Under the pieces are notes generated by a model. That model searched no databases, was not told where the DNA came from, and saw nothing but the letters and a program-made list of their open reading frames with translations. 64,000 nt of DNA from Natrinema salinisoli (lineage in GTDB: Archaea; Halobacteriota; Halobacteria; Halobacteriales; Natrialbaceae): assembly GCF_020405205.1 (NCBI RefSeq), contig NZ_CP084469.1:3658001-3722000 (forward strand). Direction: 5' to 3'. Of this stretch, positions 26,381-27,504 are shown piece by piece. A program made the position numbers and the translations under genes. Position 1 is the first letter of the stretch, and every line of letters starts with the position of its first letter.

Positions 26381-26397
26381 GGCGGTGCGCTCGGTTT

Positions 26398-26613
26398 GGA
26401 GTTATCTCGTCGTGGCACTCGGAGGAGTATGAACTTGCTGTCTCGTGGGAGGAATACGCTGAACGACACGAAGCACATTGCATCGAATTCGCCGAGGAAC
26501 TGGCTATTCGAGGGGGAGACGTAAACCTCGTTCAGGAGCCAGCGCTGTCCGAAGACGTGTTCGTGGAGTTCCTGCGTTCGGAAAACGGCAGTTCCGGAAT
26601 TGAAACGGAGTAA
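26398..26613 (+). pseudogene. C-terminal remnant of an unknown gene
   Basis: In the frame ending at 26611-26613 (TAA) the sequence from about 26398 reads as protein-like and hydrophilic: SWEEYAERHEAHCIEFAEELAIRGGD then a LVQEPALSEDVFVEFL segment. This has the balance of a real haloarchaeal protein, but no ATG or GTG start precedes it; an ATG at 26429 is in another frame. It starts directly after the pabC start codon on the opposite strand. It is probably the 3' end of a gene whose 5' part was lost. Family not recognised. Confidence 0.4.
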
Positions 26614-26616
26614 CGA

Positions 26617-26721
26617 TTAGTCTCGAAGGTGGGCGTTCGACCGCGCCAGCTCCCGGAGCCGCTCGTTGTCCGGGATATCGTACTGTTCACTGACGTCGCG
26701 AACAGCTTCTTGAAGCGTCAT
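26617..26721 (-). CDS. Tiny 34-residue protein with its own promoter
   Basis: This 35-codon frame reads MTLQEAVRDVSEQYDIPD followed by NERLRELARSNAHLRD, a charged amphipathic helix-like peptide. It is too short to recognise. Support comes from a TATA box (TTTTAT on the minus strand, 26751-26756) about 30-35 nt before the ATG, the expected spacing for a leaderless haloarchaeal gene. It converges on the remnant at 26398-26613, with the two stop codons 3 nt apart. It could be one half of a decayed toxin-antitoxin pair or a free-standing micro-protein. Confidence 0.45.
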   Translation of the reverse strand: MTLQEAVRDVSEQYDIPDNERLRELARSNAHLRD

Positions 26722-26750
26722 TGGTGTACGCACTTATGTGGTTGGGTGGA

Positions 26751-26756
26751 ATAAAA
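26751..26756 (-). promoter_or_regulatory. TATA box of the 34-residue gene
   Basis: TTTTAT on the minus strand, in a locally AT-rich patch, 30-35 nt upstream of the ATG at 26721. The spacing predicts a transcript starting at or next to the start codon. Confidence 0.5.
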
Positions 26757-26882
26757 CTTCTCAACGGACCCCTGCGTTCCGAGACTGTCTGATAGACCGT
26801 TGGGCGTTCCGAATTATCGCCTGAGTCTCGCCTCCCAGAGCGACACCTCTCCGACCAACAATTCAGCATCCTAACGTTTTTC

Positions 26883-26994
26883 AGGATAGATTGCGTACCG
26901 CACGGATGCGCACGAAAGTGCGCAAGAGCCGGAGTCCAGCCACCAAGCTAACACTCCGGCTCACACACAGCCCCCGCGTAGCGGGAGCAATCCA
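26883..26994 (-). ncRNA. Candidate structured RNA in the pabA-pabC insert
   Basis: Several perfect stems fold this stretch into a closed multi-branch shape. The outer stem pairs 26889-26894 with 26987-26992 (GATTGC/GCAATC). Inside are a 7-bp stem with a GAAA tetraloop (26907-26924), a 10-bp stem (26926-26935 with 26953-26962, 17-nt loop), and a short stem with a three-base loop (26971-26987). On the minus strand the last stem is 8 bp including a G-U pair that is a mismatch on the plus strand, which favours minus-strand transcription. A minus-strand TATA-like CTTTATTT at 27010-27017 lies at about promoter distance from the outer stem. RNA family not recognised; a piece of a mobile element's terminal structure is an alternative. 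Confidence 0.5.
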
Positions 26995-27107
26995 CCGTTG
27001 ACGGTGACGAAATAAAGAAGTGCCGACGTTCCGCCGACCAGTCGCTCCTGTCGCCGACTCGTTCGCTGGGTTGCGTACCGCCGCGCCGGGGCCAGACAGA
27101 ACGACCC

Positions 27108-27287
27108 ATGGTCTCGAGCATCACCATCCACTGCACCTGTGGGACGGACGTTCGTATCGAGACGACGACTGACCCGGCCGCGTGTCCGGACTGCGAGACG
27201 ACGTTCGAATGCACGCTCGTCGAACACGTCGAGGATAACAATGTACCCAGCACTCGCTACGGCACTGAGACGTATCGCGGCCCGTGA
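27108..27287 (+). CDS. Small cysteine-rich zinc-binding protein
   Basis: A 59-residue protein with CTC (C9, C11), CPDC (C26, C29) and C35, suggesting a zinc ribbon-like site (TIHCTCGTDVRIETTTDP, ACPDCETTFEC). The ATG has no Shine-Dalgarno-like sequence and follows a possible promoter region with no clear TATA box. Its last 47 bp overlap the next gene in another frame, which is longer than usual for overlapping genes and suggests that the C-terminal tail arose by frameshift. Function unknown. Confidence 0.55.
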   Translation: MVSSITIHCTCGTDVRIETTTDPAACPDCETTFECTLVEHVEDNNVPSTRYGTETYRGP

Positions 27288-27459
27288 GGACCGTCGCGTG
27301 ACGGGCCTGCCACCCCTGTCCGAGGCGGTGGACCCCGAGGCCCTCACCGCGGTCCTCGAGTCGAACCCGACCGTCACCGTCCGCTTCGAGTACGAGGGCT
27401 ATCGCATCGTGCTCGGTCCCGGACCTGACGAGGTCGCGGTGAGCGATCGGGAGCGGTGA
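27241..27459 (+). CDS. HalOD1 output-domain protein
   Basis: A 72-residue protein consisting almost only of a HalOD1 output domain: an N-terminal helix (ALATALRRIAAREDRRV), LPPLSEAVDPEALTAVLES, then a small beta sheet (TVTVRFEYEGYRIVLGPG). HalOD1 domains occur in haloarchaeal signalling proteins and as free small proteins; the molecular role is undetermined. It starts inside the 3' end of the upstream small zinc protein gene. Confidence 0.75.
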   Translation: MYPALATALRRIAAREDRRVTGLPPLSEAVDPEALTAVLESNPTVTVRFEYEGYRIVLGPGPDEVAVSDRER

Positions 27460-27504
27460 CGGACCGCCGATCGGCCCGCCCGAGCGACGATTCGGGCGGC
27501 CCGA

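Follow-up and report, generated by a model that had tools for sequence, protein, structure and literature searches.

Between pabC and pabA of the haloarchaeon Natrinema salinisoli lies a stretch of DNA from which several stems can be drawn. Is it transcribed into a structured RNA, from which strand would that RNA be made, and what might it do? The original prediction placed here an RNA of about 110 nt, made from the minus strand and folded by four stems into a closed, clover-like shape. We analysed the element in the window, which is the whole 64,000-nt stretch of contig NZ_CP084469.1 under study (3,658,001 to 3,722,000), and in its haloarchaeal homologues. The explanation that we favour, at a probability of roughly 0.65, is that the plus strand encodes a cis-acting 5' leader RNA which can take either of two mutually exclusive folds and controls an operon of a zinc-ribbon gene and a HalOD1 gene. 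The features of the window copy are as follows.

26868-26882, plus strand: predicted basal promoter, a BRE-like ATCCTAACG (26868-26876) followed by a TATA-like TTTTTC (26877-26882)
26907-26924, plus strand: H1, a 7-bp hairpin with a GNRA (GAAA) loop, located where the transcript is predicted to begin
26926-26962, plus strand: H2, a hairpin of 10 bp (26926-26935 with 26953-26962) with a variable loop
26970-26988, plus strand: H3, the hairpin GCCCCCGC-GUA-GCGGGAGC, able over its full length to pair with 27068-27093 instead
27001-27029, plus strand: P5, in this copy an imperfect hairpin, with the AU-rich loop GAAAUAAAGANNU and containing the AT motif 27010-27017
27068-27093, plus strand: anti-H3 segment, the 3' partner of 26970-26994 in a long helix, with its end 14 nt short of the ATG
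27108-27287, plus strand: small zinc-ribbon protein of 59 aa, with four invariant Cys (CxC...CPxC)
27241-27459, plus strand: HalOD1-domain protein of 72 aa (Pfam PF18545, E 4.7e-13)

Hairpins, homologues and insertion site

The folding energy of the element stands out from dinucleotide shuffles on both strands (z of -6.3 on the plus and -5.5 on the minus strand), with none of 200 shuffles as good on either. The three hairpins H1-H3 occur about 90 times, in 14 Natrinema genomes and in other haloarchaea. The element has two copies in its own genome; 29 copies are found among same-genus genomes at 80-93% identity, and there are more in Natrialba, Natrarchaeobius, Halopiger and Halobiforma. Conservation, hairpins, strand, gene linkage and the competing helix described below are shown by comparing these sequences.

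Across 92 aligned homologues, H1 is paired in 98.5% of cells with 2 pairs changed on both sides, H2 in 96.5% with 4 and P5 in 84% with 2, and in H3 both sides have changed in 5 pairs. Taken together, the four hairpins keep 91% of their pairs, against 31-43% in slid controls. The compensating changes that the original prediction had called for amount to 13 double-sided pairs and 52 such cells, which 0 of 500 shuffles reach. A conserved structure with compensatory changes, one mark of a cis-regulatory leader, is present. The loop of H1 is GAAA, with GCAA, GCGA or pentaloops as rare variants, and in other families the arms of H2 read GAGAGGGAG/CTCCCTCTC instead of GAGCCGGAG/CTCCGGCTC. The H2 loop stands in opposite orientations in copies of the same genome, reading CCAAGCCTCCAAGCAGAGG in one and CCTCTGCTTGGAGGCGTGG in the other (L109:2001-2177 and L112:2001-2177, and several further pairs). 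The flipped motif is seen in about 17 of 87 copies and looks as if the hairpin arms had mediated DNA inversion.

Much of the originally predicted fold is recovered in this alignment. Its 7-bp stem with a GAAA loop (26907-26924) and its 10-bp stem (26926-26935 with 26953-26962) are H1 and H2, both conserved with compensatory changes in the 92 homologues. Its 8-bp stem is H3, likewise present and conserved, at 26970-26988 rather than one base to the left at 26969-26987. The stem that would close the shape, 26889-26894 with 26987-26992, can be drawn but lacks conservation, since of its six pairs four are mismatched in 9 to more than 20 homologues each. As it also shares two bases with the 8-bp stem, and has its 5' half upstream of the predicted plus-strand start, the closed four-stem shape is unsupported.

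How far does the element extend beyond the genus? A covariance-model search of other haloarchaeal genomes, which had been suggested along with the fold, was run with a model (R1) trained on same-genus copies only. It matched 35 genomes among the 392 of the order, belonging to 15 of 95 genera, and reached three other families with weak full-length matches (E 1e-5 to 3e-7); two partial matches had E near 2e-3 to 4e-3. A refined model (R2) found 37 genomes in four families, but for members of its own alignment the E-values are circular, and distant homology therefore rests on R1. At most seven candidates were scored per genome, so that a count of seven means at least seven, and some genomes carry at least seven leader copies. 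Leader-operon cassettes are tandem or closely spaced, about 1.5-5 kb apart, at four loci (L039, L100, L130 and L138). A pattern search for the divergent form of H1-H2 added no loci to the two already known. A sub-threshold match to the CRISPR repeat RF01357 (28.6 vs 35 bits) lies at L087:3489-3542, close to a divergent leader locus.

That the structure would match no known RNA family had been foreseen, and Rfam indeed gave nothing at gathering score nor at relaxed thresholds, the best chance match being Scr3202 (16.9 vs 52 bits). The description of the locus as an accessory insert also holds. Eight same-genus genomes that lack the element have pabA and pabC 17-59 bp apart; where it is present, the gap is 1.1 kb in the window and up to about 2.6 kb among loci with both genes present. 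The insert between pabC and pabA spans 26381-27504 here and varies in size among species. The DNA left of the leader is mostly unrelated from one site to the next, as though further insertions build up next to the cassette. Adjoining pabC, an open frame without a visible start (26401-26613, plus strand) resembles the 3' remnant of a truncated gene.

Linked genes, promoter and strand

Nearly all leader copies lie about 80 nt 5', on the plus strand, of a gene for a 42-60 aa CxC...CPxC zinc-ribbon protein, which is usually followed by a HalOD1 gene. Zinc-ribbon matches are found downstream of 80 of the 92 RNA copies and HalOD1 matches downstream of 79, almost all on the same strand, and several of the misses are contig gaps. 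The four Cys of the zinc-ribbon protein (9, 11, 26 and 29) are invariant in 18 aligned relatives. Its match to the A2L zinc-ribbon family of Pfam is weak and under the cut-off, and the nearest small archaeal-type PDB match, 6ydh, is also weak (E 0.005). A tblastn search with this protein in 125 genomes of the family returned almost only leader-bearing loci. In other families the RNA is still 5' of small CxxC proteins, of very different sequence, with HalOD1 genes in several cases. A fixed position and orientation 5' of a consistent gene, a second mark of a cis-regulatory leader, is thus observed. Leader-like matches at L087, L199 (genome G172) and L201 (G098), the last two in other families, have no recognised zinc-ribbon or HalOD1 gene. 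A coding function for the leader was rejected on its lack of a conserved start codon and on indels that are not in triplets.

Pairwise identity falls from 78% in the leader to 70% in the zinc-ribbon coding DNA and 52% in the linker. It is 73% in a promoter-like block before H1 and 20% in the preceding 60 nt, and conservation therefore starts abruptly at this block. The block consists of ATCC(T/G)AAC and then a TATA-like box about 30 nt 5' of H1, distant families included, in which CCGAAC and a canonical TATA occupy the same place. In relatives the box reads TTCTTTA, TTTTTTA, TATAAATA or TTTATAAT; the TTTTTC of the window copy is weak. As the haloarchaeal consensus is CGAAA for the BRE and TTWT for the TATA box (PMC4983044), the block matches it, and we infer its use as a promoter. 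A sigma-70 promoter scan was set aside as not applicable to archaea.

With a promoter-like block of its own for H1-H2, which begin at the predicted 5' end, with a leader better conserved than the coding region, and with the gene absent at some leader-like matches, the element could instead yield a stable plus-strand small RNA (H1-H2-H3) that acts in trans. Such an RNA would be released from the leader or terminated within it, and the gene would be its passenger or protein partner. We consider this improbable. Almost all copies are linked to the gene, and no intrinsic terminator (a hairpin with a U-run) was found on the plus strand of the leader, so that neither a terminator-like site for a small RNA nor the signature of an intrinsic attenuator is seen there. 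Furthermore, the helix to the segment before the ATG, described in the next section, is itself conserved and needs one continuous transcript. On the minus strand, 27038-27022 resembles a terminator, a hairpin with a T-rich run after it, and lies antisense to the leader. It is at chance level, and may stop transcripts entering from pabB-pabA.

Which strand, then, carries the RNA? Wobble counts within H1-H3 show more A-C mismatches than G-U pairs on the plus strand, which taken alone favours the minus strand. One pair of the last stem is C-A on the plus and G-U on the minus strand, as had been noticed in proposing a minus-strand RNA, and all eight H3 pairs are standard on the minus strand. The largest part of the A-C excess arises because both arms of H3 are also held by a partner segment downstream. 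Pairing of both arms with that segment explains better than minus-strand transcription why they are fixed at the C-A mismatch. A noncoding RNA of about 110 nt running leftward from 27010-27017 would also draw on the AT motif there, which reads TCTTTATTTCG on the minus strand and is conserved in Natrialbaceae. In most other families this motif is no TATA box, and the promoter that had been seen in it is better described as the loop of P5.

Further points favour the plus strand. The BRE/TATA-like block stands before H1, and the variation of the H1 loop (GAAA/GCAA/GCGA) fits a GNRA loop on this strand only. The RNA is fixed 5' of one gene pair. The second strand of the long helix reaches near the start codon, beyond the proposed minus-strand transcript, and G-U pairs exceed A-C there when read on the plus strand. 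With its closing stem not conserved as well, a minus-strand RNA is very unlikely, and both the strand and the extent of about 110 nt give way to a plus-strand 5' leader, a reading that is well supported by these comparisons.

A long-range helix that competes with H3

In the window copy, 26970-26994 and the anti-H3 segment form a duplex of about 24 bp at -39.9 kcal/mol. Across copies this segment ends 12-20 nt before the start codon. Over 48 sequence types, the helix energy of matched partners averaged -33.2 against -29.7 (sd 0.44) for permuted partners, a difference reached in 0 of 20000 permutations; these sequence types are related by descent and not fully independent, and the control segments gave the expected result. 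With minus-strand letters the whole-H3 test was positive as well (0/20000). Being positive on both strands, it shows pairing and not strand, so the strand has to be read from the tail test and from the G-U counts. The 10-nt tail core alone gave 3/20000 with plus letters vs 2427/20000 with minus letters, and control segments were negative.

An alignment of 67 Natrialbaceae copies supports the same helix. In it 84% of cells pair, against 37-49% when the strands are slid, and 28 cells are changed on both sides against 15.8 in shuffles (0/500). Read on the plus strand, the helix has 215 G-U pairs vs 88 A-C mismatches. H3 and the long helix are mutually exclusive, and each is conserved with covariation. 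Two mutually exclusive conserved folds, such as a riboswitch has, are thus found in the leader, and one of them would affect the expression platform.

These counts also bear on whether an RNA is involved at all. The element is multi-copy and dispersed, with tandem copies; it is inserted between pabA and pabC, and its H2 loop is inverted between copies. All this would suit the inverted repeats of a small mobile or duplicating cassette, acting as DNA in the form of a recombination site or a protein-binding cruciform, with no RNA function. Such a cassette does not account for the predominance of G-U pairs on one strand of the long helix or for the GNRA loop. Nor does it account for an orientation and spacing to the start codon that are fixed in all lineages, with conservation starting at the promoter-like block. 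In addition, the plasmid and phage collections searched contain nothing similar, and viral contigs gave no exact match to the leader pattern. We regard a DNA-level element as very unlikely.

How would the two folds of the plus-strand leader be balanced? An ensemble calculation over 78 leaders put the probability of the long helix at about 0.7 and that of H3 at 0.17, with energy parameters not designed for molar KCl. Given the high stability computed for it, the long helix may be the sole fold rather than one of two.

Proposed mechanism and known systems

In the proposed mechanism, transcription probably starts near 26905, beside H1, and would give a leader of about 205 nt with H1, H2, H3 and P5 ahead of the zinc-ribbon and then the HalOD1 gene. 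When the long helix forms, the region just 5' of the start codon would be locked in a stable duplex; when H3 forms, that region would be free. We infer a switch between the two folds, the balance of which sets translation or stability of the mRNA. These levels appear likelier than attenuation because the plus strand has no terminator, and the operon is probably controlled at translation. The most likely trigger would be the zinc-ribbon protein binding its own leader (autoregulation), or else a change in ions, metal or salt. HalOD1 is predicted to bind metal ions (PMC5847659), and a Haloferax HalOD1 gene is up about 10-fold in low salt (PMC12852389); neither report concerns this operon directly.

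More tentatively, the leader could belong to an unrecognised class of haloarchaeal riboswitch. It would itself sense a metal ion, the salt or ionic state or a small signal, flip between H3 and the long helix and so control a multi-copy zinc-ribbon/HalOD1 signalling operon. We hold this to be unlikely.

In archaea the known cis-regulatory RNAs are few. Most mRNAs of haloarchaea are leaderless (PMC4983044), and structured leaders have been described as not typical in haloarchaea (PMC4983044; PMC8241225; PMC7247131). A conserved, folded mRNA start with two competing shapes suggests an unrecognised RNA switch in these organisms. A covarying two-fold leader 5' of a HalOD1 signal-transduction domain, in as many as seven copies per genome or more, would make a testable case of haloarchaeal RNA-based control, and offers a way into the question of which signals HalOD1 proteins answer.

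Several known systems resemble parts of this one. Stand-alone HalOD1 (PF18545) proteins of haloarchaea (PMC5847659) form a multicopy family to which the second gene of the operon, of 72 aa, corresponds; the excerpted text of that paper describes the HalOD1 protein domain only and leaves leader RNA and zinc-ribbon partner unmentioned. Leaders of the riboswitch or protein-binding type, such as the ribosomal-protein leaders of Halobacteria and Methanomicrobia (PMC7247131) and the archaeal fluoride riboswitch (cited in PMC8241225), are likewise structured, covarying 5' leaders fixed 5' of one gene family, with competing pairing near the start codon. Unlike such riboswitch-type and protein-binding leaders, the present one has no sequence or structure match in Rfam, the genes that it would regulate are a zinc-ribbon/HalOD1 pair, and any ligand binding is presumptive. 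The first gene product recalls the small haloarchaeal zinc-finger proteins of about 40-60 aa with two Cys pairs. Haloferax HVO_2753 is one such small CxC/CPxC zinc-finger protein. Compared with these, the zinc-ribbon protein described here is a distinct family, which falls under all Pfam cut-offs and is linked to the leader.
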